This document shows positions 3,852 through 47,456 of a DNA stretch of 64,000 nt, one piece after another. The stretch covers positions 1-64,000 of the forward strand of contig CAJTDK010000001.1 of the NCBI GenBank assembly GCA_910575105.1. The letters run 5' to 3'. A model generated the notes under the pieces. It searched no databases and had not been told where the DNA came from. It was given only the letters and a program-made list of their open reading frames with translations. The position numbers and the translations under genes are program-made. Position 1 is the stretch's first letter. The number at the start of each line of letters is the position of its first letter. Source of the stretch: Lachnospiraceae bacterium. GTDB lineage: Bacteria; Bacillota; Clostridia; Lachnospirales; Lachnospiraceae.

Positions 3852-3885
3852 TATAAAATGTGGAAATCATAGAGGTGTCATATTA

Positions 3886-5746: not shown

Positions 5747-5767
5747 TTGTTGGATGATTTTTTCTGA

Positions 5768-6112: not shown

Positions 6113-6248
6113 AGACACGTCTTACCAAGCACTGAATTTGGTTATCCATCTGCCGATGGAAACAAAATTCGCTTGTTAGGGGACGCCCCTAATACCCCGT
6201 GGAAAAGACCGCCGCCAGAGGACGGCAGGCAGAAAGGAGTTTTTAAGG

Positions 6249-7409: not shown

Positions 7410-8265
7410 ACAGCCCCAGAAGCGGAAACGGAAACCAAAATCGAAAGGAGCAAGATAACCTATGAGTATCTATCTCTGACCGCCACGGACGAGCTTGATT
7501 TGCCGTCTTTGGGCGAGAAGAAAGTTGCTTTATTTGCATTGATACCAGACAACGACACCAGTTTTAATTTTCTGGTAAGCATTCTTTATACGCAGCTATT
7601 CCAACAATTATTTTATCTTGCCGACTATAAGTACGGCGGGAGTCTGCCCGTCCATTGCCAGTTTATTATGGACGAATTTGCGGTGCGTCAGTTTGCTCGA
7701 TGACTTTGACAAGATACTGTCAGTTATGAGGTCAAGGGGCGTGTCCGTTTCGATTATCCTGCAAAATCTGGCACAGCTGAAAGCCCTGTTTGAGAAACAG
7801 TGGGAAAGCATTGTCGGAAACGCTGATGAGTTCCTCTATCTGGGCGGAAACGAGCAGAGTACCCATAAGTTTGTGTCGGAGCTGTTAGGCAAATCCACGA
7901 TAGACACGAACACCTACGGGAAAAGCTCTGGACGGAGCGGCAACTATTCCACAAACTACCAGATTTCGGGGCGTGAGCTTTTAACCCCAGACGAAGTGCG
8001 TATGCTTGACAACCGCTACGCACTTCTTTTTGTGCGTGGTGAACGCCCTGTCATGGATTTAAAGTATGACATCTTGAAACACCCGAATGTGAAACTGACT
8101 GCCGACGGAGGGAAGCCGCCGTATATCCACGGCGAGCCGACACAGGCAGTCGCAACCCTTGTGTTTGACGGGGATATTCCTAAGAACGCCGTGAGCGTGG
8201 AAGCCGTCAGCACTTCCTATGAGCTTCTGTCCGATGAGGACTTGGAAGAAATATTCAATTTATAA
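7410..8265 (+). pseudogene. VirD4/TcpA coupling protein, 5'-truncated and frameshifted
   Basis: C-terminal part of the T4SS coupling ATPase. Recognisable blocks are LTATDELDLPSLGEKK, PVHCQFIMDEFA (Walker B region, frame of position 7500) and DDFDKILSVMRSRGVSVSIILQNLAQLK (frame of position 7618). The frames change at about 7683-7687 by one extra base, so the ATPase core is split. The N-terminal membrane anchor and Walker A are missing through the deletion that joins this fragment to the relaxase. The last part, to EDLEEIFNL, is intact in sequence. Confidence 0.8.
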
Positions 8266-31574: not shown

Positions 31575-31576
31575 TT

Positions 31577-31587
31577 CCCCCCCCCCC
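31577..31587 (-). repeat. poly-G (11) tract in the ribosome-binding region
   Basis: Eleven G on the coding strand lie between AGAA and AATTG, where TTG is the presumed start of the pyruvyl transferase gene. The tract overlaps the Shine-Dalgarno position, so slippage would alter the spacing. Upstream AGGAG sits about 35 nt away. Confidence 0.9.
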
Positions 31588-31609
31588 TTCTATTTTTCCT
31601 CGAATCTCC

Positions 31610-32659
31610 TTATAAAATGCCTAAATATGAGAATAGACACTGCTTTTGGGCAGCATATTTTTCAATCTCGGATAAAGATAGAATCTTATCTTTAATGCCA
31701 TAAACAAACTCCTGTCTCACTGCCAGATTCCGAAACATCGGATCGGCATCCCGTTTCAGTGTATCTGTCCATACCGGATCATTGAAAACTTTCTCCAGCA
31801 ATCCCAGTTTCTTTTCCGTATCCATCTCTCCGGCAAATATATTTCCAACCGCTTCATCCACAAGCGAAAGGTATATTGCATAGAGAAAATCCTCATTCAA
31901 CTTAGAAACCGGTCCGTAATACTCCAGATATTCTTTTGTCGCTGTCCATAAATCCCGGTAGCTGCTCAGACCATCTTCAATATTTCTATGAGAAAGAGAA
32001 TTATGATATTGATAATACTTATACATGGCCTTACCATAGATACCTATACGATCCGCTTTCTGGAACATATTCAATGTCCATATCGTATCATTACAAGTTC
32101 TTGCTTTTCCGGGAGGTCTTGCATAATCAGCCGATTTTAAAAACGAGGAAGAATACAATTTCCCCCATAAATAAGAAATAAAGCCTCTATAGTTAATAAA
32201 TTCATCTTTAAACCTGCTGCCATAGACAATCAGATTATTTTCCAGCACTTTATGTTTTTCGATTTTACCGGTATTTCCATTAATCATATCATAGCCGCCG
32301 GCAGCAATATCCAAACTGTATTCCTCAGAGAACCGAACCATATTTCTAAGAAAATCTAAAGTATAGGCATCATCCGCATCACACCACATAATATAATCGG
32401 CGTTAGTAACATTGATGATCGTACGAAAAATTGCCCAGCCATTTGTAGGATCATTTTTACTGACATTTAGCGGCACAATACGCTTATCGCTTTTAGCATA
32501 TCTTAACATAATGTCCCATGTCTGATCATCAGACCCATTATCAAGAATATAATATTCCAGATCCCTGAATGTCTGGTTTAGAATGCTTTCTATCGCCCTG
32601 CCTAACGTCGCCTGGGCATTGTACGCCATTGTAAAAACATTTACTTTAACCTTACCCAT
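31610..32659 (-). CDS. GT2 glycosyltransferase
   Basis: A 349-aa family-2 glycosyltransferase (GT-A): NVFTMAYNAQATLGRAIESILNQTF, YYILDNGSDDQTWDIM, the metal-binding WCDADDAYTLDFL (DxD) near residue 93, and the acceptor-side HRNIEDGLSSYRDLW. It is a close paralogue of the gene at 36309: start, DxD region and C-terminal halves align almost throughout. It adds a sugar to the surface glycan; donor unknown. The next gene follows after 35 nt containing the poly-G tract. Confidence 0.88.
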   Translation of the reverse strand: MGKVKVNVFTMAYNAQATLGRAIESILNQTFRDLEYYILDNGSDDQTWDIMLRYAKSDKRIVPLNVSKNDPTNGWAIFRTIINVTNADYIMWCDADDAYTLDFLRNMVRFSEEYSLDIAAGGYDMINGNTGKIEKHKVLENNLIVYGSRFKDEFINYRGFISYLWGKLYSSSFLKSADYARPPGKARTCNDTIWTLNMFQKADRIGIYGKAMYKYYQYHNSLSHRNIEDGLSSYRDLWTATKEYLEYYGPVSKLNEDFLYAIYLSLVDEAVGNIFAGEMDTEKKLGLLEKVFNDPVWTDTLKRDADPMFRNLAVRQEFVYGIKDKILSLSEIEKYAAQKQCLFSYLGIL

Positions 32660-32707
32660 TCTTTCTACCCCAACGCATGAACGGACTCCTCACCGGTCTG
32701 GTCCGTC

Positions 32708-34210
32708 TCAAAATACCCATGGCATCTCTTCTGCCCTGTGCAGCTTTTCAAGCCTTACTCCCTGCTCCTCATATTGGCGCAGGCTGTCAAAAATATCCTG
32801 ATCATATTTATATGTACAGATCAGCACGATATCTGGCTTCAGCCCAATAATCTCATCAGGGCCATGCACAAGTCTCTCATCGGCCATCTGTCCCCACATC
32901 TTTGGGTCACTGTTAAATTGCAGCCACTCAAATTCCGGTTCGCCAAAAAACTCCTGATAAAGCCTGATGATCAAATTCGAAAATCCTCCATTGGGATAAA
33001 GGCCGACTTTCTTATATCCTTTTTGGTACAAAAGCTCTCTCAGCCGCTCCTTATGCGCCTCTTTCGTAAAATAAACCTGCCCTGCCCGCCGGTACGTATC
33101 CGCCACAGCCTCTATGATCCCCAGCTTCTGCGTACACTGTTTTTCACACTTACCACACTTGATACATGGATTTTCTGCCGTTTCCGGTAGCCAGCCTTCA
33201 TCGTGAAGCAGCGGCCGGAACATCTGAATATGATAAAGCAGCTCCTCTGGCTCCATGCGGTTATAGGAAGCGGCCGGCGCAAACAAAAGGGCATTGCGGG
33301 CCTGCATGATCGCCGGCGTAGGAATTCCCTGAGGACATCCCTCACAGTACTTGCATCCTGTACAAAAATCCTCCAGGCCGGCAACACTTTTCATAACCCT
33401 CTCCAGCCTCTCTGCCGGCGGTTCCGGGTCAGGCCTGGTAAATACACTCAGGCTGTCTTTTAACTCTTCTTCATTTTTCACTCCGCCCAATACCAGGTCT
33501 ACCGCAGGATGCGCTTTTACAAACCGTAAAGCGGCATGGACCGTATTGCCTTCATCCTTGTCTCCGCAGGCGAATGAAAAATACTCTTTATTTTGGGCAA
33601 TAACGCCTCCCCCCAAAGGATTCATGACCGAGATGCCAATATCATTTTCATAAGCGGCATCCAAAACCGGAAGCATATTGGCAGCGCTGAGCATAGAATA
33701 TGAGATAGTGATTCCTTCAAATGCCTTGCTTTCAATTATTTTTTGTATATCTCCCGGCACGGCATGAAGGGAACAGCAGATATGATCGATGATCCCTTCT
33801 TCTTTCATCCGCAGAGCACCTTCATAAATGCCGCCCTTTTTCATAATTTTTTCAAATATGCAATAATTCCAAATCGTCCAGCATGTAAAATACTGGACTT
33901 TCTTAAGCCCCATTGTTTTGAGATACAGCTCTACGCGCCTGCGGGCGTCATCCGCCGTCCGGTCCTGCCCATACATCACTTTCGCCGTCACCGAGAATGG
34001 CCTGTCTGTCTGCTGAAATGCTTCTTTCAGCACAAACGGAGCCATACCGGCAGAATAATTATATCCAACGTCTATATAAGTTACCCCGCTTTCCAGAGCT
34101 TTACATACCAACTGTACCGACTTTTCAATACCTTTTGTATCATTCGGTCCCGAGATCGGGAACCGGGATGTACCAAGCCCAAGCGGGAAATGCTTACTGA
34201 AAATACTCAT
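32708..34210 (-). CDS. aldo/keto reductase with 4Fe-4S ferredoxin domain
   Basis: A 500-aa multidomain protein. Residues 1-270 are an AKR barrel (GLGTSRFPISG, YIDVGYNYSAGMAPFVLKEAF). Residues 280-375 carry ferredoxin-type cysteines (CTGCKYCEGCPQGIPTP and CIKCGKCEKQC). Residues 395-500 form a C-terminal domain (KKVGLYPNGGFSNLIIRLY) similar to the Rossmann-like module on other proteins of the operon. AKR-ferredoxin fusions reduce or rearrange small carbonyl compounds; inside this operon a role in making a modified sugar is likely but unproven. Confidence 0.82.
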   Translation of the reverse strand: MSIFSKHFPLGLGTSRFPISGPNDTKGIEKSVQLVCKALESGVTYIDVGYNYSAGMAPFVLKEAFQQTDRPFSVTAKVMYGQDRTADDARRRVELYLKTMGLKKVQYFTCWTIWNYCIFEKIMKKGGIYEGALRMKEEGIIDHICCSLHAVPGDIQKIIESKAFEGITISYSMLSAANMLPVLDAAYENDIGISVMNPLGGGVIAQNKEYFSFACGDKDEGNTVHAALRFVKAHPAVDLVLGGVKNEEELKDSLSVFTRPDPEPPAERLERVMKSVAGLEDFCTGCKYCEGCPQGIPTPAIMQARNALLFAPAASYNRMEPEELLYHIQMFRPLLHDEGWLPETAENPCIKCGKCEKQCTQKLGIIEAVADTYRRAGQVYFTKEAHKERLRELLYQKGYKKVGLYPNGGFSNLIIRLYQEFFGEPEFEWLQFNSDPKMWGQMADERLVHGPDEIIGLKPDIVLICTYKYDQDIFDSLRQYEEQGVRLEKLHRAEEMPWVF

Positions 34211-34225
34211 AAATACCTCCCTTTC

Positions 34226-35026
34226 CTACACCTGTTCCGCCGCCGGATATCTGGGCAGTATGTCCATATATTTCTGCTTACAGTACCGGCAGGAACGGCG
34301 GGCATGCTCATAAAACTGGGAAATGACCTCTCTCTTTTCTTCACGGCTCACGCGATCGTCCCTAAGACGCACGAAATCCCCTTCCTTCGGCGGGAACAGC
34401 CCCATCTCAAGCATAAAACAAGAATTTGCACAGCGGTGAAGCTTGCCGTCATAAACATGCATATTTTTAATGCGGTTCTGCGGGCAGTTCCGCGCATTTG
34501 CCTCAAGTACATACCCGGGTTCTTTCAAGTCATGCGGATTGGTGTTGTCAATCCATCCTCCAAAATACTGATCCTCATCATGGTATTTTTTCAGGTTGCA
34601 TTCTATCTTATGCTTCCCGCAAAAATCTACGAATTGATCCCTTGCTCTCGAAAGGTCACCATAATTGCTGATGTATATACTAAGCTTGTCTCCATATTGC
34701 AAAAGCGCCTCCTGCTCCTGCGGATTGGGAAATACTGTAGCGTTCGTCTCAATGATCAGGCGCTCAAAACGGTCAATATATTTCACTGCATAGCGAAGCA
34801 GATTCGCAAAGTCAGGGTAGACGAAGACCTCCCCGCCCACAAACTGCAACCAGACTACCTCGTCGAACAAATCAAAACAGGCGTCGATATCCCTGCAGAC
34901 ATCCTCCAAAGGAATATGCCGCCGCTTTACCGGACCATATAAAAAATCTCCGCACAGCTTGCAGTTCAGGCTGCAGTGGGTTGTCGGCACGATGGCCAGC
35001 CGACGGGCACTTATTTTTTCGTTCAT
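34226..35026 (-). CDS. radical SAM protein of the glycan operon
   Basis: A 266-aa radical SAM protein: LAIVPTTHCSLNCKLCGDF (CX3CX2C near residue 19), then VVWLQFVGGEVFVYPDFANLL and LIIETNATVFPNP. Additional cysteines follow (NCPQNRI, LHRCANSCFML, CRYCKQKYMDILP), suggesting a SPASM/twitch-like auxiliary cluster. The start MNEKI at 35026 follows GAAAGGAGA. It is 15 nt upstream of the AKR gene; both could act on the same substituent. Confidence 0.82.
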   Translation of the reverse strand: MNEKISARRLAIVPTTHCSLNCKLCGDFLYGPVKRRHIPLEDVCRDIDACFDLFDEVVWLQFVGGEVFVYPDFANLLRYAVKYIDRFERLIIETNATVFPNPQEQEALLQYGDKLSIYISNYGDLSRARDQFVDFCGKHKIECNLKKYHDEDQYFGGWIDNTNPHDLKEPGYVLEANARNCPQNRIKNMHVYDGKLHRCANSCFMLEMGLFPPKEGDFVRLRDDRVSREEKREVISQFYEHARRSCRYCKQKYMDILPRYPAAEQV

Positions 35027-35078
35027 TACTTTCTCCTTTCTACTACAAAACAAGCAAATTCAGATTTTGGAAAGCTTT

Positions 35079-36223
35079 TTAAACCGCGTATAGAATGATA
35101 TCCCAAAAGCTCCTTCCAATCTGCCAAAATGATATCTTATAATCATCCCGTATTTTCAAAATAGTCTGCAAAAGCTCATAAATATCCTCCGGTTTATGAT
35201 AGGCACAGATAATCATCTGCGGCTTTTGAGTCCGAATAATCTGCTCTGCTCCGAGCAATGCTTCCTTTTCCTCCCCTTCAATATCCATTTTAATGATAGT
35301 CGGCCATTGCTCCTGCGGTTTATCGGCAAAAAACAGATCCAATGATGTCACAGGGATTACAATAGTTTCTTCATTTTTATTTTGCGCAATATGTGAACCT
35401 ATAGAATCCGCTAACTGAGTACTCGCAAACCTTAATTCCGTTTCCTGGCTTGAAAGACCATAGGGTATAACATCAATCTTACTGTATTTTGAAAGGTTCT
35501 TAACCGCTTTCTGATAATTTTGTGGATCTGGCTCAAAAGAATAAATATATTTATAATTCTTGTCGTTTGCTTTCATATTGTTCATAAATTCTTCAGCAGT
35601 ATCCCCGACATATGCTCCTCCATCAAGATAAATCTCATCCTCTTGCAGTTCTATACCAGGAAAAGCAAAATATCCCTCCTCATATAAAGAATCAGGGGGA
35701 CAAGGCTGTCCGCACAAAAGCAATCTGATTCTGTCCAAGATCTTCTGTCTGGAGTGTCCGTCAGTGAAATAGTCATATGCCCATCGGTATCCTTCCAAAT
35801 ACTTTTCCCTGAACAGTTCCGGTGCTAATATCAGAGGAAAACGAAGAAATCCCATCTGTGCATCTGGGAATCCAGATATAATTAAGAAATCATAGATTTC
35901 CTGCTCGTATTGCCACGGCGTTATAAGTACAAAAGCATCACCGTAGTTTTCCAACAGCTCATCCGGTGAAATAATATCATAAATCTGTTCTTTATATTTA
36001 TACACCCCTGTTGCCTTACTATCGCAGACACAAGTGACTGTGATTCCAAAAAGAGCGCAGGTAAACAATGCAAACTCACAATTGCCTCCAGCCCCATATA
36101 ATATCAAAGGAGTATTTTTCTGCCCCCCCCCCCACTTAAATATTTTGCAAGCAGATTTCCAGGATAGCTTCTGACTGCCTCATTTTCAATTTCCGCATAT
36201 ATCTCATCAAAATTTTTCATCAT
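35079..36223 (-). CDS. FkbM-family methyltransferase, phase-variable, out of frame here
   Basis: The gene starts at the ATGATG of 36223 (AAGGG site) and encodes MKNFDEIYAEIENEAV... up to LSGGG. An 11-G tract (36123-36133) then throws it into a frame that stops at TGA nine bases later. With 12 or 9 G it would read through into LILYGAGGNCEFALF and give about 381 aa. The rest has a Rossmann-like domain (about 40-140) and a FkbM methyltransferase domain (LDGGAYVGDTAEEF, YSFEPDPQNYQKAVKNL, IIKMDIEGEEKEALLGAE). The product would O-methylate a glycan sugar. An internal start at 36107 is possible but has no good site. Confidence 0.8.
36123..36133 (-). repeat. poly-G (11) tract inside the FkbM gene
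   Basis: Eleven G on the coding strand after codons TTA-AGT. The count sets the reading frame: 11 gives an early TGA, 12 restores a full-length frame. It is a slipped-strand phase-variation site by its length and position. Confidence 0.92.
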
Positions 36224-36308
36224 TATTTTTCCCTTCTGGTATTGGTTTTTAAAATATACAAACAGGTGCTTCTTTAAAATTCTAAAACAATCTATTGTAA
36301 TTTCTCTA

Positions 36309-37346
36309 TTATATTTTTAGATATGAAAGCAATTCTTCCGCCCGACGATAATTTTTTTCTATTTCTGGTAATGCGGTAATCTTCTTTTTTATATCAAAAA
36401 CAAACTCTTCTCTTCCAGCCATATTACTAAACTGAGGATCTACATCACGAGTCAAAGTTTCTTTCCAAACTGGATCACTAAATACCTCCTGCAATAACTC
36501 CAGTTTCTTTTCCGTATTTAATTTAGCGGCAAACACATTCCCAGCCGCTTCATCCACAAGCGAAAGATGAATGGCATATAGAAAATCTTCATTTAGCTTG
36601 GAAACCTGACCATAAGATTCCAGATATTTTTTTGTAGCTTTCCACAAATCGCGATAACTGCTCAGTCCTGCCTCGATATCTATGTGTGAAAGGGAATGCG
36701 GATACTGATAATATTGATACATTGCCTTTCCATATATTCCTACCCTCTTTGCCTTTCGAAATAACCCTAATACCCAGCTAGAATCATTACAAACACGTTC
36801 CTTTTTAGGTGTATTCGTTGTTGATTTTGCTTTCAAAAATGGTACTGAATACAATTTACCCCATAGATAAGATGCAAAGCCTCTATATTGTATAAATGCA
36901 TCCGTAAAAAGCTGGTCGTAGATAATCAAATTATGTTCTAACGCCCGATGTTTTTGGACTTCGCCTGTAAATCCATTTATCTTGTTATATCCACATACAG
37001 CAATATCTAATTTATTTTTTTCTGCAAAATCAATCATTTTTTCTAGGAATTCAGACGTATACGTATCATCTGCATCACACCAAACGATATATTCTGCATC
37101 TGTAGCACGAACAAGTGTGTTGAAAATCGTCCCCCCATTAGGCGGGTCATTTTTATTCACATGAAGTGGTATAATACGCTCATCAATTTTACTGTAATCA
37201 AAAATAATATCTTCTGTATCATCTGTAGATGCATTATCAAGTATATAATATTCAAAATTAGAAAATGTCTGATTCCGTATGCTCTCTATTGTCCTCTTTA
37301 TTGTCATTTGTGCATTATATGCCATTGTAAAAACTATTACTTTCAT
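36309..37346 (-). CDS. GT2 glycosyltransferase, paralogue
   Basis: A 345-aa GT2 enzyme: KVIVFTMAYNAQMTIKRTIESI, YYILDNASTDDTEDII, WCDADDTYTSEFLEKM (DxD), ending with an ALPEIEKNYRRAEELLSYLKI tail. It is closely related to the gene at 31610, so a duplication within the operon is likely, with divergence in sugar or linkage. Its ATG overlaps the stop of the upstream radical SAM gene (TGATG). Confidence 0.88.
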   Translation of the reverse strand: MKVIVFTMAYNAQMTIKRTIESIRNQTFSNFEYYILDNASTDDTEDIIFDYSKIDERIIPLHVNKNDPPNGGTIFNTLVRATDAEYIVWCDADDTYTSEFLEKMIDFAEKNKLDIAVCGYNKINGFTGEVQKHRALEHNLIIYDQLFTDAFIQYRGFASYLWGKLYSVPFLKAKSTTNTPKKERVCNDSSWVLGLFRKAKRVGIYGKAMYQYYQYPHSLSHIDIEAGLSSYRDLWKATKKYLESYGQVSKLNEDFLYAIHLSLVDEAAGNVFAAKLNTEKKLELLQEVFSDPVWKETLTRDVDPQFSNMAGREEFVFDIKKKITALPEIEKNYRRAEELLSYLKI

Positions 37347-38737
37347 CAGTTATACTCTCCCAATTTTTCATTAAGCAAAGCCTGTTTCGCAATAAGCGCA
37401 AGAGATACATCATATTGTGACATAACAGCATCAAATCCATATTTATGCATATTGGCAATTATCTCTTTATTTACTTCACCATTTGTTATTGTTATAAATA
37501 CCGCATCCTCTTCATTATCCAATCCTTCAAAATTTGGGTGATGAATCGGACAGCCATCGTCTTGATCTGGAGTTTCACTGTCCTGCAATGAGGGAGGAGC
37601 TGCAATATCCCAAATTACAGCAGGTTTTTGTAAATCTAATGAATTCCATGTTTCCAACAAAACTTCACAATTTTTTCCGGCACCATAAAATATTAAATTA
37701 GGTGTTTGCAACAATACATCTAGTCGAGCACTGCACTGTCTGATCTTCGGAAGCTGATACAGTTCACCGTATATTTTCTTTAAATTGGCGTCGCCTAAAT
37801 AATTAATTAAACGAAATGGAATTTCTTTCTGAATAGCTTTCTGTACCAGCTGTACAGCAGTTTCTACAATATTCTGTTCATAAAAAGTTTCCTTCTTGAA
37901 ATCCCTTGTTTTAGTGAAATCCCCTGAAACAGACATTTCTACGATACCTATATCATTACAAATATCAATAAATCCGTCTACATCATCCTGGCCGCAGTTT
38001 TCATTCAATATAATATATTTTAAATATATCTGCGCGCCCTGTTCACTATATTTCTTTAAGTTTGCTATTACAGTTTTAAAAGCCCTTACACCCCTCACGA
38101 ATTGAAAAGTATCATTCGTACCCGCATCAATGCTGACGATCAGACTATTACGTTTACTTTTTTGCAGTATACGCGCCACCTGGTCATCGTATATTCCAGC
38201 ATTACTTGAAAATGTCGCGATATATGCATTCTCTTCAATAAATTCAAAATATTCTTTCCTCTTTGGATGTATCGCAATTTCTCCGGCCGCATAATCAATT
38301 TTCAAACGTTCAGATAACATATTGCGGTTCTTTAGCTCTTTAGCAATAGAAATACTATCATATGGTTCTGGACGATTTTTACCTTCTTTCAATCCCCGAT
38401 TTCTTTGCAAACCACAATAAATACAGGAAAACTGGCAATAACTCTGCACCCCAAAATTAATGAAATCGATTTTATATTCTGTGACTCCTTTTTTCCACTT
38501 ACGTTTTTGGAATAACGGGCAACCTTTACACGGTGCATCCGTCTGTTGATTCAGTTCAACAACTTGCTCCCTCATGACCAGAAAAGCGTCAATCGTGGAA
38601 ACTGGATCTTCTTTTGGAGCAACAAATCCTGGATTCTCTCTTTCACAGCAAAACATCAATCCCACATTTTGCATTGTAATTCCAGATTCAATATAACTGC
38701 AGCTCCAATATGCTTTATTCAAATCTTCTTTTTTCAT
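37346..38737 (-). CDS. radical SAM protein with appended Rossmann-like domain
   Basis: A 463-aa protein. After an N-terminal Cys-containing region (CKGCPLFQKRKW) comes the radical SAM motif CQFSCIYCGLQR (CX3CX2C near residue 112), then barrel elements (IVSIDAGTNDTFQFVRGV). The C-terminal 110 residues start NLIFYGAGKNCEVLLETW and match in style the YGAGGNCE domain of the FkbM protein two genes downstream. The role in the glycan pathway is unknown; it may set a sugar modification or a stereocentre. Confidence 0.8.
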   Translation of the reverse strand: MKKEDLNKAYWSCSYIESGITMQNVGLMFCCERENPGFVAPKEDPVSTIDAFLVMREQVVELNQQTDAPCKGCPLFQKRKWKKGVTEYKIDFINFGVQSYCQFSCIYCGLQRNRGLKEGKNRPEPYDSISIAKELKNRNMLSERLKIDYAAGEIAIHPKRKEYFEFIEENAYIATFSSNAGIYDDQVARILQKSKRNSLIVSIDAGTNDTFQFVRGVRAFKTVIANLKKYSEQGAQIYLKYIILNENCGQDDVDGFIDICNDIGIVEMSVSGDFTKTRDFKKETFYEQNIVETAVQLVQKAIQKEIPFRLINYLGDANLKKIYGELYQLPKIRQCSARLDVLLQTPNLIFYGAGKNCEVLLETWNSLDLQKPAVIWDIAAPPSLQDSETPDQDDGCPIHHPNFEGLDNEEDAVFITITNGEVNKEIIANMHKYGFDAVMSQYDVSLALIAKQALLNEKLGEYN

Positions 38738-38747
38738 GGTATTCTCC

Positions 38748-39668
38748 TCAAATATATTTTCCTACCCATTCCCTCTCAAAATCAAGTATCTCCGCCGAAC
38801 TCAAAAACTCCTCCCTGTGTTCCCTAAGTTCTTGTATCATCCGATCCAGTTGAATCCCGCAATCCCTGATCTGCAGCCTGTTGATCTTCTCCACCATCGA
38901 TATCATAAACGACCATTCAAAATAGCGGAAGGTCTGCGCATAATCCGGGAATTTCTCGCTCAGCCATTCTGTCCTTGTGCGGTAAGCATACAGATATTCC
39001 TCCAGTGCAGCCGCCGTCAGCAGCCGGTGATCAGTAGTCCACGCTGAGTGATTCCCTTCATGGCGGTAAAACGTATATTTCGGAAGACCGTGATATGCAA
39101 CTTTATCTGCTTCCGCCAGCAGCCGGTACATCAGCGCAATATCATCATAGGCCCCTTCCTCTGGAAAATGGAGCCTGTCCGCAAGCTTGCGGCAAAACAG
39201 CTTCGTTGGAAATGCCATATTATATTTTTTCCGCCACATCAGCTCAACAAGCGCTTCCCTGGCCGTCATAACCTTCTTTTCATCGAATACCTTATCCGCC
39301 GCACCGCAGATGGATACGTCCGCATCGTTTTCCACCGCAAGACGATATAAGAATTCCAAAAAATCCGGTTCCGCCCAGTCGTCATCATCGATAAAGGTAA
39401 TATATTCTCCACAGGCGGCAGAAAGCCCCGTGTTTCTTCCCGAACCAATATTCCCTTTTTCCCGGTGGATCACCCGGATCCTGACATCCTTCAGGGCGTA
39501 TTCATCTGCAAGATTTCCGCTGCGGTCGCAGGAACCATTATCGACGATAATGAACTCAAAATCCGACTCCGTCTGGTTAAGAATACTTTCTATCGCCCTG
39601 GGTACAAGCCTTTCCCGATTATAAGTCAGCATGATCACACTTATCTTCGGCCTTTTTTCTTCACTCAC
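38748..39668 (-). CDS. GT2 glycosyltransferase
   Basis: A 306-aa GT2 enzyme: KISVIMLTYNRERLVPRAIESILNQTESDFEFIIVDNGS, then FIDDDDWAEPDFL (DxD near residue 85), and the C-terminal RLQIRDCGIQLDRMI. The GTG at 39668 is the best start, with GGAGG 7 nt upstream; an ATG further upstream has no site. It is more distant from the two paralogous GT2 genes in the operon. Confidence 0.87.
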   Translation of the reverse strand: MSEEKRPKISVIMLTYNRERLVPRAIESILNQTESDFEFIIVDNGSCDRSGNLADEYALKDVRIRVIHREKGNIGSGRNTGLSAACGEYITFIDDDDWAEPDFLEFLYRLAVENDADVSICGAADKVFDEKKVMTAREALVELMWRKKYNMAFPTKLFCRKLADRLHFPEEGAYDDIALMYRLLAEADKVAYHGLPKYTFYRHEGNHSAWTTDHRLLTAAALEEYLYAYRTRTEWLSEKFPDYAQTFRYFEWSFMISMVEKINRLQIRDCGIQLDRMIQELREHREEFLSSAEILDFEREWVGKYI

Positions 39669-39686
39669 TGCCCAACCTCCGCACAT

Positions 39687-41375
39687 TTATTCTAATGCCT
39701 TCTTTTTTAAGAACTCATAAATTTTCTGACCTGCCGTACCATCTGCGTTTACCGTAAAATCCCGAAACATCTGTATCTGCAGCCGCTGATATTCCTCTGC
39801 CTCCGGATACTTCTCCCGATGTAAGACAAAATCAATAAATCGATCGGTATAATGATTAAAATGCATATTTTGCATCACGTCTTCTTCTAAAAAATTGTCC
39901 CACCAGATGCAAACATTCCAGTCTCCGACATTCGCTCCTTTAGCCGCACGCATATTGTGAAGCCGTCCCGCCAGCGGCGCGTGGAAATCCCCGCCGTCAT
40001 CATAGACCGGCTGCGGCAGCGCTTTTGTGACCGATGGAATATAAAACGGCTTTCCTGTAGCCATATAAAGCAAAAGAAGCGAGCTTTCATCCGAAATCAT
40101 CCCATCGCTCCATGCGATTGCCCTGTGCAGATCCTCCGTATCGTCAAAGATCCCTCCGCCTGAATCTTTAAACTCCTGGGAAAGCTCCAGATATTCCTGT
40201 AAAAAATCGGGACGCATAGAGCGAAGTGTTGCCTCAAATAACGGATGCGGACGCCACCATAGGATAACGTCATCATTTCCTTGAAAGTCTTTTATGATCT
40301 GGCGAAGCTTTCCAAAGTACCAGCTATCACAAGGCGGATACTCTCCCATAACCTCCGCCCGCTGTGCACTGGATTTCAATAGCTCTGACAGGCTCGTATT
40401 ATAAAGAACCACTTTTTTGCCCTCGATCTTCCTCTGCCACTTTTCCGGCAAATGATAATCCTCTCTTCCTGTGTTCAGGATCTTATCGAATTTGGGAGAA
40501 CCAAGAGGAATAAACTTCTTACGGATCCTCTCCGGCGTCATGTGATATTGCCGTGCAATCTCCGGATACGCCGCGAACATCGTTCCGTGCGATTCGGCAA
40601 GTTCTTTGGAATACCGGATATCATAATGGGCATGCAGATGCACCGGAAGCGGCACACTATTCTTCTTAATATCCCCCTGCAGATCTTCCGCCCACGGATC
40701 CCGGTACTGCCAGTAAGGCAGACCATACTCGATATACACCAGCATATCCGTACAGTCTTTCAGGCGGCTGCTGTAATAATCCGGGTGGACAGAAGTTACA
40801 TAATTCTGGCCATCATAAGGATTCATAATGAATATCACGTCGGGCCGGCGGACTTTTACATCATATTCCCTCCAGTCTGTCAGCTCATATGCTGCAGGAT
40901 AGCAGCCCGGCCCTTCCAGATGCATCTGACCGAAACTTCCGTCCGGATTACGGTCGTAAAACGGAATCGGGACAAAATATGCATCACAGGAGGGATCCTC
41001 TTTTGCTGCAAAATATACACTCTCCAGAGAATCCGACATGCTCGCCTTATTACAGAAAAAGACCATCTCTATCTTATCTGCCCTCAGGCTGCCGATCTCT
41101 TCCTCGAGCTTACGAACCATCTTGTTTATCTGTTTTACCGGAACCTTTCCCTGCGAAGCATAATACAGCATTTCATAAAGCTCCTTTAAGAGCTTCAAAA
41201 ACTCCGCATCCTCATCAAATACCATTTCTGCATGTTCAAATATTTTATAAACAAAATCCTGTATATCTGCACACAGGTTTAAAAATCTATCCTTTTTCTG
41301 TATTTTCAGCTCTTTGCAGGCCGTATCCAACGTTTTTACCAAATCAGAAAACTGTCTTATCTGTAACTTCCGCAT
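39687..41375 (-). CDS. CDP-glycerol glycerophosphotransferase-like protein
   Basis: A 562-aa protein. The C-terminal half has TagB/TagF (CDP-glycerol glycerophosphotransferase) hallmarks: the GT-B fold with IPLGSPKFDKIL, VILWWRPHPLFEATL and SDGMISDESSLLLLYMATGKP. The N-terminal 120 residues are helical and unrecognised. The enzyme would transfer a polyol phosphate or a sugar from a CDP-activated donor onto a glycan. That fits the cytidylyltransferase gene 3 nt upstream. It has no membrane segment and is longer than usual. Confidence 0.78.
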   Translation of the reverse strand: MRKLQIRQFSDLVKTLDTACKELKIQKKDRFLNLCADIQDFVYKIFEHAEMVFDEDAEFLKLLKELYEMLYYASQGKVPVKQINKMVRKLEEEIGSLRADKIEMVFFCNKASMSDSLESVYFAAKEDPSCDAYFVPIPFYDRNPDGSFGQMHLEGPGCYPAAYELTDWREYDVKVRRPDVIFIMNPYDGQNYVTSVHPDYYSSRLKDCTDMLVYIEYGLPYWQYRDPWAEDLQGDIKKNSVPLPVHLHAHYDIRYSKELAESHGTMFAAYPEIARQYHMTPERIRKKFIPLGSPKFDKILNTGREDYHLPEKWQRKIEGKKVVLYNTSLSELLKSSAQRAEVMGEYPPCDSWYFGKLRQIIKDFQGNDDVILWWRPHPLFEATLRSMRPDFLQEYLELSQEFKDSGGGIFDDTEDLHRAIAWSDGMISDESSLLLLYMATGKPFYIPSVTKALPQPVYDDGGDFHAPLAGRLHNMRAAKGANVGDWNVCIWWDNFLEEDVMQNMHFNHYTDRFIDFVLHREKYPEAEEYQRLQIQMFRDFTVNADGTAGQKIYEFLKKKALE

Positions 41376-41378
41376 GGC

Positions 41379-42158
41379 TTACCAAACCTTCCAGGGCGCG
41401 CTGCCGTTATTCCAGTGAGTTTCAAGAAAATATCTGTCTCGCTGGGTATCCATACACTGCCAGTAACCGCTATGCTTGTATATCCCAAGCTTTCCTTCCT
41501 TCGCCATCGTTTCCAAAGGAATCTTCTCCAGCACACAATTATCATCATCGCCAAGATATTGGAACACTTCCGGCTCCATCACCATAAAACCGCCGTTGAC
41601 CCAGCCTCCGTCTCCTTCTCTCTTTTCCCGGAAGTCAATAATCCTTTCTTCTGCGGAATCTAATTCCAGGACTCCAAAACGGCTTCTTGGCTGTATCGCC
41701 GTCAATGTTGCCGCCGTGCCGATATTCCGATGCGTCTTTAGCAGCAGTTCCAGATCTATATTGCCCACGCCGTCTCCATAAGTCAGCATAAAGGCTTCAT
41801 CCCCGATATATTTTTGTATCCGCTTTATCCTCGCGCCAGTCTGCGCATACCATCCGGTATCCACCAGTGTGACACGCCATGGTTCTGCTATATTTTCGTG
41901 AACGACCATTTTATTCTTTTTAGAAAAGTCAAACGTCACATCAGAGCAATGAAGATAATAGTCTGCAAAATACTCCTTTATGGCATAGCCTTTGTATCCG
42001 CAGCAGATCACAAAATCATGAAAACCAAAATGTGAGTAATATTTCATGATATGCCACAAGATTGGCTGTTCTCCGATGGTGATCATCGGTTTTGGTTTCA
42101 AATGGCTTTCTTCGCTGATCCGCGTTCCCAGCCCGCCTGCTAAAATTACAACTTTCAT
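41379..42158 (-). CDS. rfbF: glucose-1-phosphate cytidylyltransferase
   Basis: A 259-aa nucleotidyltransferase, MKVVILAGGLGTRISEESHLKPKPMITIG, with GDGVGNIDLELLLKTH (metal-binding Asp) and the RfbF-type tails FMVMEPEVFQYL and YKHSGYWQCMDTQRDRYFLE. The enzyme makes CDP-glucose from glucose-1-phosphate and CTP. No CDP-glucose dehydratase is in the operon, so CDP-glucose or a relative may be used directly or completed elsewhere. ATG 42158 has GGGAGA upstream. First gene of the ten-gene glycan operon. Confidence 0.88.
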   Translation of the reverse strand: MKVVILAGGLGTRISEESHLKPKPMITIGEQPILWHIMKYYSHFGFHDFVICCGYKGYAIKEYFADYYLHCSDVTFDFSKKNKMVVHENIAEPWRVTLVDTGWYAQTGARIKRIQKYIGDEAFMLTYGDGVGNIDLELLLKTHRNIGTAATLTAIQPRSRFGVLELDSAEERIIDFREKREGDGGWVNGGFMVMEPEVFQYLGDDDNCVLEKIPLETMAKEGKLGIYKHSGYWQCMDTQRDRYFLETHWNNGSAPWKVW

Positions 42159-42204
42159 TACGCATTTCTCCCAGTATTTTCTGCCAATACTTTTTCGCAT
42201 TTTA

Positions 42205-42582
42205 AATAAGGCATATTGCGTCACCTTTTATACGGTGATGCCTGCTGCAGACTTCTGCCATGTACTTTCCGCACGGCTGCAGCAGCTTGGCTTCGCTCCC
42301 GGTACTTCTCGGATGCTGCTTATTATTCGATGTACTAGACCGCGCCCGAGTTCCCACAGGTCCTGGCATACCCAATACCCGGCATAATGCCGGCTTCTAA
42401 TGCCGTTCTTATTTTTTTTGCTTATGGAATGAACTGCTTATGTTCCATACTCAGTCATTGCATAATCTATCATAAAGAAATCCTTCTACAGTCCTTGTTC
42501 CGGTCGCCCGGTTCCGGTGAAATGCGCCCTTGCAGCCCATTTATCTGTAGAATTTTCTATCATGAACCTAGTACTTCATCCT
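42205..42582 (-). other. gene-free structured stretch upstream of the glycan operon
   Basis: No credible ORF. On the minus strand it holds paired segments: CTGCTGCAG and CTGCAGCAG, each self-complementary, in 42240-42290, and GGC-TCACC / GGTGA-GCC (42210-42242) close to the rfbF start. As it follows the TnpB-like gene it could be a long 3' RNA of that gene, and it must also contain the promoter or leader of the glycan operon. I could not place a promoter with confidence. Confidence 0.4.
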
Positions 42583-42599
42583 GCTAGTGCTCCATCCTG
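42568..42599. repeat. tandem 16-bp repeat, two copies
   Basis: CTAGTACTTCATCCTG (42568-42583) is followed directly by CTAGTGCTCCATCCTG (42584-42599), 14 of 16 identical. The second copy is the outer part of the inverted repeat described next. Confidence 0.85.
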
Positions 42600-42748
42600 T
42601 TAGAAACCGGACTAACAGACTGCGTGGTTCGTGCCAGTGCTAGGCAAAATTCCGACGGCGATGTGGTTCTTCGTCTAGAAATTTTAACGACGCAATGGTG
42701 CGAAACAGGCAGTTCATGAGTTCGGTTTCTAGCAGGATGGAGCATTAG
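42584..42748. repeat. 26-bp inverted repeat around a 113-nt core
   Basis: The arm 42584-42609 (begins CTAGTGCTCCATCC, ends TAGAAACCG) is complementary to 42723-42748 with two mismatches. The right arm ends one base from the stop codon of the TnpB-like gene. The core has further short pairings. It could be a terminal stem of a guide-RNA-like transcript or the terminal repeat of a mobile element. A palindromic relative lies at 49850-49888. Confidence 0.85.
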
Positions 42749-42749
42749 A

Positions 42750-44078
42750 TTATCCTGCCGTTTTCGGCTCCATCAAAAGCCGTCCCCGGCTTCGGGCGTT
42801 CTTCGCCGCATTATGTTTTCTCGGAAGTACAAGTTTGCATCTGCTGCATATAAAATCCCCCTGGCCGATGCTTCCATTGCCCCCGCATCTGCTGCATTCC
42901 CTGCTGATATCCTTTCCAAACACCCCGACAAGCTCAATGGAACGCTCCCTGCATTTTTGCGCCAGCCGGCTTCTCACATACCCTCTCTGCCACATGCTGG
43001 CGGAATAATTGATTTTTCGGTTTATACCTGCCTTCGGTACTGACGGCAGTTTGGGAATATAGATGATCCGCGGCTTTTCTGTTTCCAACATACGATTGAT
43101 CTCTGCATTGACATAAGTGTGCAGCGCCGACTCCAGCCGCTCCTTCCCCGCGTAATACTTTTTCCTGCCGGGATTATTCTGCCGGTTTCTCCGATAGCGG
43201 GCCTGTCCCTCCCGGACATATTCGGTAAGGGCATCCTGATAGATCCCATACCTTCCGCCGTAGATATTCCCCTGATCTGTCACAAACATTTCCGTCATGC
43301 CCACAGCAAGTCCGACCTCATTGCAATAATCTTCCCTGTTCTTTGTTTTGACTTCTATCGGTATGTCAATTTTTATTTTCCCCGCATCTGGATCAATACT
43401 GATATGTAGTTGTCTCTCATATTGATTTCCGTCCGTCAGCGGGATAAATATCCGCTTTCTCTTTTCTTTCGTAGAAAGATAAATTCCGTGATCTCCATAG
43501 CGATAACCTTTTACTGCTACGGAAAATCCGTCTGCCGCATCTGTATGCAGCTTTTGCAGGTGTTTGCGTACCTGACGGCGCAGATACTGGTCCAGCCTGC
43601 GTCCGTCCACTTCAGCACGCAAAATTTCAAACTTCTCCTGCCAATTGCCGCTTATATCTGGTATTTTACCGGAAAGGACAGCTTCAAAGCATTGGCTCTG
43701 CTTCATGATAAACCGCAGATAATGCCGCTCCTTGTGATTCAGATCCGGATGGCTCCGAATACTTTTTTCAACTCTGGCCCGGGTATAGGACCATTGGCTC
43801 TTCACATCCCCTAATGCATCAAAAACGGCACAATAGAAGTATGCTGCTGGAAGGCCAAGGCTTTTTCGCATACCGCTCTGTGTCATCTCGTTCTGGACGG
43901 TGTATCCTGGATAGAGTTTTGCCAGGCTATGTATCCCTCCATAACGCTGGTAAATCTGATTTTTCACATGGCAGTAATCCTTTGCTATCTCTTCCAGCTT
44001 TTCCATGTCTGATGCCGGTACCAACCCTCTGCTGTACTGATGCACTGTTTTGTATATTGTCTCCTGAGCCTTTTCCAT
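42750..44078 (-). CDS. TnpB-family protein lacking RuvC catalytic residues
   Basis: An intact 442-aa TnpB/Cas12f-like protein. The C-terminal zinc ribbon is complete (CSRC 395-398, CSRC 411-414), and GYVRSRLAQKCRERSIELVGVF is typical. In the RuvC motifs the acidic residues are missing: the usual G-I-D-x-G is VGLAVG (Ala258), the usual E-D-L is IPKL (Pro342), and the usual D-x-NAA is RKHNAAKN (Lys421). It should not cut DNA but could still bind RNA and DNA, like the TldR-type RNA-guided repressors derived from TnpB. AAAGGAA precedes the ATG. Residue assignments are by eye. Confidence 0.8.
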   Translation of the reverse strand: MEKAQETIYKTVHQYSRGLVPASDMEKLEEIAKDYCHVKNQIYQRYGGIHSLAKLYPGYTVQNEMTQSGMRKSLGLPAAYFYCAVFDALGDVKSQWSYTRARVEKSIRSHPDLNHKERHYLRFIMKQSQCFEAVLSGKIPDISGNWQEKFEILRAEVDGRRLDQYLRRQVRKHLQKLHTDAADGFSVAVKGYRYGDHGIYLSTKEKRKRIFIPLTDGNQYERQLHISIDPDAGKIKIDIPIEVKTKNREDYCNEVGLAVGMTEMFVTDQGNIYGGRYGIYQDALTEYVREGQARYRRNRQNNPGRKKYYAGKERLESALHTYVNAEINRMLETEKPRIIYIPKLPSVPKAGINRKINYSASMWQRGYVRSRLAQKCRERSIELVGVFGKDISRECSRCGGNGSIGQGDFICSRCKLVLPRKHNAAKNARSRGRLLMEPKTAG

Positions 44079-44140
44079 GACAAATTCCTTTTTTACGCTG
44101 CCTTGTTCTGCTTCTTCAAAATGCGCTGAGTAACGGAAAT

Positions 44141-44167
44141 TTTCGTAGATTGTCGGTTTCTACGAAA
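44141..44167. repeat. recombinase core site, left (inverted relative to 45610)
   Basis: Perfect 9-bp arms TTTCGTAGA / TCTACGAAA around the 9-nt spacer TTGTCGGTT, the architecture of a tyrosine-recombinase core site. Sixteen bases (TGTCGGTTTCTACGAA) recur in inverse orientation at 45612-45627. It lies between the tnpB-like start and the integrase stop. The first copy spans 44151-44166. Confidence 0.8.
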
Positions 44168-44216
44168 AGCGCTGCTCTGTCCCGCATGAATCAGTACTTT
44201 TCGTCCTCCTGACCAT

Positions 44217-45335
44217 TTATTTGACGGCAAATAGATTTGAAAAGCGCTCCATATTCTCTGTTTTCAGAGCTATAGAAGGATGGACATACCGGTTCATTGT
44301 AATTGTAACGCCGGCATGTCCCAATATTTCGCTCAAGCTCTTAATGTCAAAGCCCAATTCTATGCATCTTGTAGCAAAGGTATGCCTCGTTGTATGAAAA
44401 TTAGCATCCGGTATTCCGCAAGCCAGAAGAATCTTCTTAAAACGGTTCTGCATGGTTCTCGGTTCTACATACCTATCGCTTTCCCCGGTCAGCAGAAACG
44501 CGCCTGGATGATGAAATTCCTCAAGAATCTCCATGAGAATTCCCGGCAGAGGAATCGTCCGAACAGAGCAGATACTTTTTGGTTCCTGGATCTTCACTTC
44601 TGTCCGGGTTCCATCTGTATTCACCGTCCGTAGCCGCTGCATGGTTTTGCTAACATACATTCTCCGCTCTGAAAGGCTGATGTCATCCCATTTCATTGCA
44701 CACAGTTCACCTACCCTGATCCCTGTAAAAAGACAGAGAAGAATGCCAAGCGCCGAAAAATTCATATTTCTCAGAAGATAACTGACCAGCATTTCCTCTT
44801 CCTCCAAGCTAAATATCCGAATATCTGCCTGCTCCCGTTTCAAACTGACACATTCTAAGGAAAAGCGGACAGTGCAATCCCTCCGCAGTGCATAAATACG
44901 GATTCCATTCAAAACTGAAAGAATCCCCGACACAGTTGACGGCGCAAGCCCCTGATTGTTTACCCCTCCTCCGGAAAGCAGATCGTTAGCAAAATCAAGA
45001 ACACTCTGGTTGCTGATCTCTGACAGCTCCTCCGCCCCGAATTTTGGCAATATATACCGGTACAGAATATCTTTGTACTTGTTTCTGGACGATTCCTTCA
45101 AGGTCAGTGACATCTCATAAAGCCAGCAATTACTTATATCCTCCACCTTCCCTGCCATTACCGCCGGCCTTTGTGTCTGCGTTCTTTTCGCTTCTTCTAA
45201 TTTTGCCTTCACCTCCCGGTAATTTTTTGCATAGACCGTGCCGTACTTTGCTTTTCCGTTAACCCGCTCTTTTATGTAGCGCCCTTCCCAACGTCCGTCC
45301 TTCCGTTTGTAAATGTTTTCGCCTGTCTTTGGCAT
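44217..45335 (-). CDS. tyrosine recombinase/integrase
   Basis: A complete 372-aa tyrosine recombinase. It has an N-terminal AP2-like arm-binding domain (YKRKDGRWEGRYIKERVNGK), a core-binding domain (about 65-155) and a catalytic domain with Arg207 (TGIRVGELC), His314/Arg317 (HTTRHTFATR), His340 (LGHAG) and nucleophile Tyr350 (MNRYVHPS). All key residues are present. AAGGAGGATG precedes the ATG. It is flanked by inverted copies of one core site and contains no other gene, which suggests DNA inversion rather than phage integration. Confidence 0.9.
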   Translation of the reverse strand: MPKTGENIYKRKDGRWEGRYIKERVNGKAKYGTVYAKNYREVKAKLEEAKRTQTQRPAVMAGKVEDISNCWLYEMSLTLKESSRNKYKDILYRYILPKFGAEELSEISNQSVLDFANDLLSGGGVNNQGLAPSTVSGILSVLNGIRIYALRRDCTVRFSLECVSLKREQADIRIFSLEEEEMLVSYLLRNMNFSALGILLCLFTGIRVGELCAMKWDDISLSERRMYVSKTMQRLRTVNTDGTRTEVKIQEPKSICSVRTIPLPGILMEILEEFHHPGAFLLTGESDRYVEPRTMQNRFKKILLACGIPDANFHTTRHTFATRCIELGFDIKSLSEILGHAGVTITMNRYVHPSIALKTENMERFSNLFAVK

Positions 45336-45555
45336 AGCTTCATCCTCCTTATTGACCAGAATTTTGACGGTTATTGGATTTTTTATTTACTCCAAATCCG
45401 TCTTTGCTTATTATAAATCCCGGAAATCTGCCGATATAAAATAATGTGAGATACGTATAAGCAATTCTTATATTTTTGTGGCAGAATGTACTTCCGGGGA
45501 CGGAATGTACGGTAACCATATTTCTGGTATTTTCAGACACTTTTTGTAAAATAAG

Positions 45556-45584
45556 TTGACAGGTTATTCTCTGTTATGTTAAAT
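45556..45584 (+). promoter_or_regulatory. outward promoter at the right end of the invertible segment
   Basis: TTGACA (45556-45561), 17-bp spacer, TTAAAT (45579-45584), with a TG just before the -10. In the present orientation it fires right into the terminator at 45650. After inversion it would point left, into the TnpB-like gene. Otherwise the 45336-45609 stretch has no gene. Confidence 0.6.
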
Positions 45585-45609
45585 TGAGTTCGAAAAAGGA
45601 AATAAGAAT

Positions 45610-45638
45610 CCTTCGTAGAAACCGACATTCTAGGAAAA
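45610..45638. repeat. recombinase core site, right
   Basis: CCTTCGTAGA, spacer AACCGACAT, TCTAGGAAAA. It shares TTCGTAGAAACCGACA with the left site in inverse orientation, and most flanking arm bases match too. It sits between the outward promoter and the collagen gene terminator. Confidence 0.8.
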
Positions 45639-45649
45639 AAACAAAAATT

Positions 45650-45690
45650 ATCCCAGAGGTTCCAGATACTGAGACCTCTGGGATTTTTTA
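45650..45690. terminator. bidirectional terminator of the collagen-like gene
   Basis: ATCCCAGAGGT (45650-45660) pairs with ACCTCTGGGAT (45674-45684). A run of T follows on the plus strand, and a TTTTTGTTTTTTT-like run follows on the minus strand. It ends the collagen-like gene and also blocks rightward transcripts from the invertible segment. Confidence 0.85.
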
Positions 45691-45710
45691 TCTTACTTTA
45701 TCGAACATCA

Positions 45711-47456
45711 TTAATTGATGCTTAATCCGGCACTTGCATATCCTGCAACTGTATTAAGCAGAGATACCCCACTTGCCGTTGCCGAAAATACCAGCATCAG
45801 CCGGGTTTGAGCCGTTACCGGAATATTAAGTCCTGTAAGCGACCCGTTTAACAGTGTACCAATAGATATTACTCCTGAAAGTGATGGTGTCAGATTGAGC
45901 AATGTCCCGGCAATCGGAGAAAATACATTATTCGGCGTTGCTGACTGATAAATCTGTGCTCTTATCGTCAGAGTAGAACCTATTAAAGAAAGCGCCACTG
46001 TTGTACTAAAGAATGCACTGAATGAAGTAATCGTACCGGCACGCGGAACCTGGAACGCAAAGTTAGAAAGTGTTCCGCTGGCGTTGGTGATATCAATCGT
46101 CGATCCTAAAAGCGTAAGCCCTTGTGCACTGCTTCCAAAGCCAACAAAAGCAGGAATTCCTGCAAGCCCTCCGGCGATCGTGGTTAAGGAAACCGGAAGC
46201 CCTGATGCAAACGGAATGATCGCTCCTGTGCCTGCGACGCCTGTGGCACCGGTTGGGCCTGTCGCTCCTGTTGCTCCTGTCGCCCCCGTCACTCCATCGG
46301 CTCCAGTTGCTCCTGTTGCTCCTGTCGGACCTGTTACTCCGTCGGCTCCCGTTGCTCCCGTCGCCCCCGTCGGACCCGTTGCTCCATCGGCTCCTGTTGC
46401 TCCTGTTATCCCGTCAGCTCCTGTTGCTCCCGTCGGACCCGTTGCTCCATCGGCTCCCGTCGCTCCTGTTGCTCCATCAGCTCCCGTCGGACCTGTTACT
46501 CCGTCGGCTCCCGTTGCTCCTGTCGCTCCTGTCGAACCTGTTATCCCGTCGGCTCCCGTCGCTCCTGTTGCTCCTATCGGACCCGTTGCTCCATCGGCTC
46601 CTGTTGCTCCTGTTGCTCCTGTCGGACCCGTTGCTCCATCGGCTCCTGTTGCTCCTGTCGGACCTGTTGCTCCATCGGCTCCTGTTGCTCCTGTCGGACC
46701 TGTTGCTCCATCGGCTCCTGTTGCTCCTGTCGGACCTGTTGCTCCATCGGCTCCCGTCGCTCCTGTGGCTCCTGTTGCTCCTGTCGCTCCGGCTGCTCCC
46801 GTCGGACCCGTTGCTCCATCGGCTCCTGTCGCTCCCATTGCTCCTGTCGCTCCTGTCGGACCGTCATCACCCGGACACCCTTTCGGACCCTGAGGCCCGA
46901 TAGGGCCTGCCACTCCCTGAATGCCTTGCGGGCCTGTTACCCCTTGCGGCCCCATAGATCCGGTCGGGCCTGTCGGACCCTGAGGCCCCGGGATACCTCT
47001 GGGTCCCTGAAGCCCCACATCTCCCTGAGGTCCCACAGGGCCTGCCGGGCCTGTCGGACCTGCCGGACCCTGAGGCCCGATGTCTCCCTTAGGTCCCTCA
47101 CAGCCCGGATCACCTTTCGGACCAATATCACCGCGGACACCCTGGATCCCCTGAATGCCCTGCGGTCCCGCATAACCTCTGGGACCTGCATAACCCCTTG
47201 GCCCTGTATTACCGGTAGGCCCTACAGGGCCGGTATTTCCTCTTGGACCTCTCGCCCCAGGAGCACCAGGAATACCCTGCGGACCTACAGGCCCCGGCTC
47301 ACCTCTGTCGCCCTTCGGGCCGGGACAGCCGGTATCCCCTTTGATCCCCTGCGGTCCCATAGGCCCCTGATCTCCCTTAGGTCCCGCAGGCCCGCGTTCG
47401 CAGCAGGGAGGATAGCACTGATTTTGGCAATTACCGTATGAATTATTATTATCCAT
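45711..47456 (-). CDS. collagen-like surface protein with BclB-type C-terminal domain
   Basis: A 581-aa protein: Cys-rich N-terminus ([20 protein letters not shown]), about 390 residues of Gly-X-Y triplets (first varied GPQG/GPKG, then monotonous [14 protein letters not shown]), and a 150-residue hydrophobic C-terminal domain ([20 protein letters not shown]..., [12 protein letters not shown]) like exosporium BclB proteins. The C-domain should trimerise and the triplets form a triple helix on the cell or spore surface. Thr in GAT/GPT triplets is the usual glycan site. No signal peptide or LPXTG. The DNA of 46230-46870 is a 9/18-bp tandem array prone to length change. Confidence 0.9.

Follow-up and report, generated by a model that had tools for sequence, protein, structure and literature searches.

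A predicted promoter inverton upstream of a nuclease-dead TnpB-like gene

A tyrosine recombinase gene and an outward-facing promoter lie between inverted repeats directly upstream of a gene for a nuclease-dead TnpB-like protein in the genome of a Lachnospiraceae bacterium, and the best reading of this sequence, which we hold with high confidence, is a working promoter inverton. The window analyzed is the 64,000-nt stretch from position 1 to 64,000 of the forward strand of contig CAJTDK010000001.1 (assembly GCA_910575105.1). In the proposed mechanism, the recombinase encoded within the segment would recombine the two inverted sites, flipping the segment. The assembled order would be the OFF state, with the promoter beside the right site reading outward into a terminator. 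The inverted order would be the ON state, with transcription from the promoter crossing the left site and entering the dead TnpB gene and then the partner RNA, and read-through could continue into a surface-polymer operon. The dead TnpB-like protein and its RNA would then act as an RNA-guided repressor resembling TldR. The repeats, recombinase, outward promoter, terminator, and dead TnpB-like gene named in the original prediction for this locus are all present, and the ON/OFF switch that it proposed for the TnpB-like gene is supported, with the amendment that the promoter may also read into the surface-polymer operon.

The two inverted repeats, each 27 nt long, are located at 44,140–44,166 (left recombination site) and 45,612–45,638 (right recombination site) and are complementary at 25 of 27 positions. 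The 16-bp identical core that had been predicted, TTCGTAGAAACCGACA, occurs in exactly two copies in the window. Allowing up to three mismatches gives three matches in the window compared with 0.35 expected, and a search of the 4.24-Mb genome with up to two mismatches found one further site only, which carries two mismatches. The left site has perfect arms (TTTTCGTAGA and TCTACGAAAA) around 9 nt, as anticipated, although the arms are 10 bp rather than 9 bp long, and they reach position 44,168. The repeats enclose one tyrosine recombinase gene and the promoter, and no more. As claimed originally, the recombinase is complete: it is a 372-aa protein encoded on the minus strand at 44,217–45,335 with a match to Phage_integrase (E = 2.6e-23), and relatives with 68–69% identity occupy the same position in loci L050, L056, and L070. 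Membership of the phage-integrase family might suggest that the repeats and integrase are the remnant of an integrated mobile element with no working switch, but this explanation is highly improbable given the inverted arrangement of the sites, a segment content limited to the recombinase and promoter, recombinase dN/dS values of 0.09–0.20 (3 pairs), and the occurrence of both orientations of the segment in relatives, as described below.

The promoter is of the sigma70 type and lies on the plus strand at 45,556–45,584, inside the right site as predicted, with its boxes TTGACA (45,556–45,561) and TTAAAT (45,579–45,584) separated by a 17-nt spacer and its end 27 nt inside the right repeat. It scores 10/12 against the consensus, a score equaled in 10% of 60 shuffles. 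In L050, L056, and L070, which carry the same recombinase subfamily as the window, a perfect TTGACA-17-TATAAT sequence is found 26–28 nt from the repeat. Across 17 cassettes, 14 linked to TnpB and three linked to a helicase, outward matches of 12/12 are found in nine, seven (L007, L049, L052, L055, L063, L064, and L074) have outward scores of 8 or 9 that are not above shuffles, and inward matches are at most 9/12 in all 17. As assembled, the promoter points into a terminator-like hairpin with a T-run at 45,652–45,689, outside the right repeat, in agreement with the predicted arrangement; this hairpin was not listed by a standard terminator scan of the window. A similar hairpin is found just past the far repeat in 10 of the 14 TnpB cassettes, and the same rule gave none in the other four TnpB cassettes or in any of the three helicase cassettes. 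Beyond the hairpin is a collagen-like BclB-type gene, with its 3′ end oriented toward the cassette. The left repeat is 61 bp from the start of the TnpB-like gene, and inversion would place the promoter upstream of this gene, as had been proposed, with ~108 nt rather than 90 nt between the predicted transcription start and the TnpB ATG, calculated from the coordinates.

Both orientations of the cassette occur in related loci

A search of 299 genomes of the family at E ≤ 1e-20 recovered relatives of the TnpB-like protein in nine, including the genome studied here, and a genome-contig collection contributed 15 loci. Dropping three duplicates (L054, L059, and L061, whose contigs have the same lengths as those of L064, L066, and L073, respectively) and the decayed copies, namely L009, L010, and a pair of fragments in G283, left a final set of 26 distinct Lachnospiraceae-type loci. 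In 14 of these loci a cassette with 21–30-nt inverted repeats is found directly upstream of the TnpB-like gene. In the remaining 12, the fetched stretch, which in L060 is cut by the contig end, contains no recombinase match at 1e-10, and therefore the switch is not essential to the TnpB-like protein. Three more recombinase cassettes, with inverted repeats of 22–26 nt, are found elsewhere in the window's own genome, at G000 C17:49073-50170 (L033), C8:130582-131679 (L034), and C8:90397-91494 (L035).

Both orders of the cassette were found among these loci. The recombinase is co-directional with TnpB in eight of the 14 cassettes (the window, L052, L056, L057, L063, L068, L070, and L074), divergent from it in five (L007, L050, L055, L058, and L064), and of mixed orientation in one (L049). 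Alignment of 14 pairs of cassettes showed that all eight opposite-orientation pairs are inverted inside the cassette and five same-orientation pairs are straight, with no alignment inside the cassette between the window and L049. In L033 and L034, helicase-linked paralogues in opposite orientations, the cassettes are 95% alike and inverted exactly between the repeats, with flanks that are collinear on both sides (94% over ~220 nt and 92% over 2.5 kb). L057 and L058 are 88% alike and likewise inverted between the repeats, with 1.8 kb of collinear flank on the TnpB side and only ~20 nt beyond the far repeat. A tree of 16 recombinases, excluding L049, requires six changes of orientation to account for the six divergent rows, compared with an average of 5.0 for shuffled tip labels, and so orientation does not cluster by lineage. 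Inversion between these repeats in relatives is thus supported by comparison of the orientations, the tree, and the superposed ortholog described below, in line with the proposed inversion by a cassette with a resident recombinase. The window assembly contains the segment in a single orientation, and flipping in this strain would be expected by extension from these relatives.

A deposited sequence that appears to superpose the two orientations

The closest relative recovered, L049, comes from Lachnospiraceae bacterium 3-2 (KE159797.1) and encodes a TnpB-like protein 78% identical to that of the window. Downstream of it are the same nucleotidyl-transferase gene (90%) and a next gene at 76%. The L049 cassette (3489-4941) reads as nonsense, with weak similarity to the recombinase on both strands. 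Our first impression was of a hypermutated recombinase, which was replaced by superposition of the two orientations in light of the similarity on both strands and the following mirror test. If a sequence is the consensus of two orientations in which the later letter of the alphabet is retained, no letter can precede, in alphabetical order, the complement of the letter at its mirror position. Among the 726 mirror pairs in L049, 203 are equal, 522 are later, and one is earlier, and this lone exception corresponds to a mismatch within the repeat arms. The same test applied to 16 other cassettes gave a roughly even split, with 222–304 pairs later versus 226–312 earlier. Further, the window recombinase fits the two-letter sets of L049 at 83% of residues with one ungapped offset, compared with a maximum of 30% among 200 shuffled proteins. 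The deposited L049 cassette therefore appears to be a base-by-base superposition of both orientations, probably with ambiguity codes flattened to the alphabet's last letter, and is most simply explained by a sequenced culture in which both orientations coexisted. Applied to deposited assemblies, the mirror test may offer a simple route to finding active invertons in draft genomes.

The TnpB-like protein has lost its nuclease residues and is accompanied by a conserved RNA

The TnpB-like protein is a 442-aa, TldR-like protein encoded on the minus strand at 42,750–44,078. It matches Cas12f1-like_TNB above the Pfam cut-off (E = 3.2e-8) and guided_TnpB at 53 bits, short of the 100 bits set as cut-off for that model, and its profile matches are to Cas12f and TnpB chains. 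The catalytic D, E, and D residues of RuvC are lost in 26 of 26 aligned members, which bears out the original designation as a dead nuclease; the corresponding positions in the window protein are A258, P342, and K421. These columns were anchored by profile alignment to Cas12f and IS605 OrfB chains. In the first column the aligned Cas12f chain itself has an alanine, presumably an engineered D-to-A substitution, and the assignment of this column depends partly on that substitution. Four zinc-ribbon cysteines are invariant in 25 aligned members, and an AlphaFold2 model of the protein is fairly confident (mean pLDDT 84, pTM 0.61). The dN/dS values of the gene, 0.045–0.127 across six pairs, in most of which dS is close to saturation, indicate that the protein is under purifying selection. 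Two decayed TnpB copies were also seen, one at L010:6827-7378, where a shortened RNA (69 bits) persists, and one at L009:7617-8125 without the RNA.

A conserved, structured RNA that resembles a guide RNA is found 3′ of the TnpB-like gene on the minus strand at 42,198–42,571 (164 bits with model R1, for which the window was outside the training set), and in some loci it overlaps the 3′ end of the gene. In the consensus structure 97.2% of cells are paired, and 67 cells have changed on both sides compared with 19.4 in shuffled controls (0/500) and at most 9 in slid versions, with covariation tested in the alignment that had also yielded the structure. Alignment A2 was made without L067, L071, L073, and L074, and alignment A1 without L073. 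A covariance model built from 17 loci detected the RNA at 25 of 26 loci, among them eight of the nine that were held out, with L067 missed. The window's own genome has at least four copies, one of them decayed and all located at TnpB genes, among the 150 of 936 first-look candidates that were scored. Rfam gave no match up to E = 1 for window positions 42,000–46,000 and nothing better than E = 3.7 for L057 and L008. A second, weak match to the RNA model was seen at L074:5201-5456 (21.8 bits, E = 8.7e-6). Between the TnpB stop codon and the RNA, at 42,572–42,749 on the minus strand, is a ~180-bp insert with inverted ends (TCTAATGCTCCATCCTG and CAGGATGGAGCACTAG) that is absent in L049 and resembles a small non-coding mobile element.

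The 3′ end of the RNA scaffold forms part of a long-range helix (GGCAU with AUGCC), beyond which the loci differ, as expected of a guide. In the window, the candidate guide segment lies directly after the scaffold end AATATGCCTTAT at 42,186–42,205 on the minus strand. In the window's whole genome, apart from the segment's own site, the 20 nt after the scaffold gave no targets with up to three mismatches (control 2), its first 11 nt gave four matches (control 3), and an alternative 18-nt register gave three (control 9). Comparison of the guides of 24 loci with their own loci, done without a control, gave no outstanding match at the seed end. No target was found for three guides among five flagellin loci or for the two csrA-fliC guides among flagellin loci, with best runs of 10 nt in both cases, and when 22 guides were compared with the loci fetched from four genomes, the genomes' own guides performed no better than the control guides from other genomes. 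At L051:5228-5471, guide letters 14–28 have a 15-nt inverted match to a site ~240 nt downstream, close to where the next gene begins. The possible RNA-guided regulator of the original prediction has thus gained a guide-like RNA, but no convincing target was found in its own genome or in the fetched loci, and so RNA-guided repression can only be inferred.

The absence of a target in every register tried, and the similar beginning of the post-scaffold segment in most loci (T-rich, then TAAAA), would fit a system that is real but in which the RNA has no DNA guide and the dead TnpB binds its own RNA, or nearby DNA, for another purpose. We consider this somewhat unlikely: the scaffold closes with the long-range helix and is followed by locus-specific sequence, and the csrA-fliC paralogue in the same genome has the setting in which gRNA-directed binding is described in passages of a published study (PMC13418256).

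The TnpB-like gene often leads a putative surface-polymer operon

Downstream of the TnpB-like gene and its RNA is a block of about 12 kb of co-directional genes with small gaps, on the minus strand at 30,345–42,158. By Pfam, the block includes a nucleotidyl transferase, a glycerophosphotransferase-like protein that is just under the cut-off, a glycosyltransferase, and a radical SAM protein, with further genes besides. Of the 26 loci, 13 encode a relative of the glycerophosphotransferase-like protein, and six others (L052, L063, L064, L069, L070, and L072) encode a protein related to one with a signal-peptide-like start; three proteins with such a start matched no Pfam family. The gene lists of L063 and L064 cover part of these loci. 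From these gene contents, the dead TnpB often appears to lead a surface-polymer operon. No terminator-like site was listed on the minus strand at 42,225–42,749, by a scan rule that also missed the hairpin at 45,652, and read-through from the flipped promoter could drive the operon. At 4757-8265 of the window, relaxase- and coupling-protein-like genes were recognized by eye and may belong to an integrated conjugative element.

The same dead TnpB family is also found in a second setting. In L008, from the window's own genome, and L071, from the same genus, the gene is paired with fliC and csrA. At L008:7652-13843 and L071:7088-12112, csrA, fliC, the dead TnpB gene with the same RNA, and a gene for a 267-aa tyrosine recombinase-like protein are side by side, and L008 also has a gene named FliB-like by eye, with no Pfam match. 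At G000 C3:117026-120488, two oppositely oriented flagellin genes flank a short recombinase match (118957-119211).

These settings bear on whether the switch instead serves the surface-polymer operon, with the dead TnpB a mere leader that has a minor or local role such as RNA processing or autoregulation. The small gaps of the co-directional block from 42,158 to 30,345 with no listed intervening terminator would fit this alternative, as would the three additional cassettes in the same genome (L033, L034, and L035), where a helicase with HA domains (by Pfam in one of the three) replaces TnpB as the leader and the genes behind it are glycan-like by eye. We regard it as a serious contender with somewhat less than an even chance of being correct, as the dead TnpB and its RNA are kept under purifying selection and are found as well at loci lacking the cassette and next to csrA-fliC. 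Taken together, the conserved RNA, the purifying selection, the operon, and the csrA-fliC paralogue suggest that the flipping promoter probably switches a TldR-like RNA-protein complex, perhaps with the surface operon.

Relationship to known systems

In Bacteroides fragilis capsule loci, invertible promoters precede glycan operons that have UpxY/UpxZ regulators as their leader genes. The locus described here similarly has an invertible promoter ahead of a glycan operon with a regulator first, but the recombinases and leader proteins are different and only here is the leader an RNA-guided-like protein. Among TldR repressors, an oppF type is known beside the fliC type. The present protein resembles the fliC type as described in passages of PMC13418256 in the loss of RuvC residues and the position of the RNA at or after the 3′ end of the gene, and differs from TldR repressors in that no guide-target match was found here and the locus is chromosomal and often operon-leading.

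The nearest precedent is the hin inversions beside csrA-tldR loci. According to the relevant passages of that study (PMC13418256, 2026), guide RNAs of csrA-associated TldRs in Oscillibacter bind flagellin genes, and Flavonifractor plautii has ~120-bp inversions downstream of hin that involve a FliA-dependent promoter. Those loci share with ours a dead TnpB, a downstream guide RNA, inversion of an upstream promoter, a host among gut Clostridia, and a surface structure, and are linked to it by the csrA-fliC paralogues L008 and L071; relatives of the TnpB-like family may be included in the tree of that study. The recombinase described there is the serine invertase hin, whereas here it is a tyrosine recombinase; the inverting piece is ~120 bp downstream of hin, compared with 1.5 kb that encloses the recombinase; the promoter is FliA-dependent rather than sigma70-type; and the targets are flagellin genes, whereas here surface-polymer genes lie downstream and no target match was found. 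By homology, inverton control of a TldR-like RNA-guided regulator is likely.

Recombinase-containing invertons are described in passages of PMC5903667, which covers Salmonella Hin and a Providencia segment of 844 bp that encloses a recombinase, and PMC11892184, where Clostridia inverton group 139 has tyrosine recombinases nearby. The present cassette is like these in having a recombinase inside or beside the segment and often surface functions, but TnpB and the RNA are present here and not in the passages on those invertons, and the term 'tnpb' is absent from the main text of PMC11892184. In literature searches on TldR, and on TnpB together with tyrosine recombinases, inversion, and phase variation, which covered titles, the beginnings of abstracts, and few subscription papers, no description of this arrangement was seen.

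The cassette offers a compact two-state switch that is open to testing, accompanied by an RNA with no credible Rfam match. In a bolder model that we consider unlikely, an RNA-guided repressor would lead phase-variable surface loci, and a flip to ON would make a TldR-RNA complex that silences competing or own surface loci by base pairing. If such cross-silencing were true, a DNA switch would program an RNA-guided switch, as an RNA-guided counterpart of the UpxY/UpxZ cross-regulation in Bacteroides capsules. If the reading of the cassette as a promoter inverton is right, a coin-flip inversion by a resident recombinase would decide the expression of a domesticated regulator of CRISPR-ancestor origin, the state of which may be tied to the surface polymer that a gut commensal displays.
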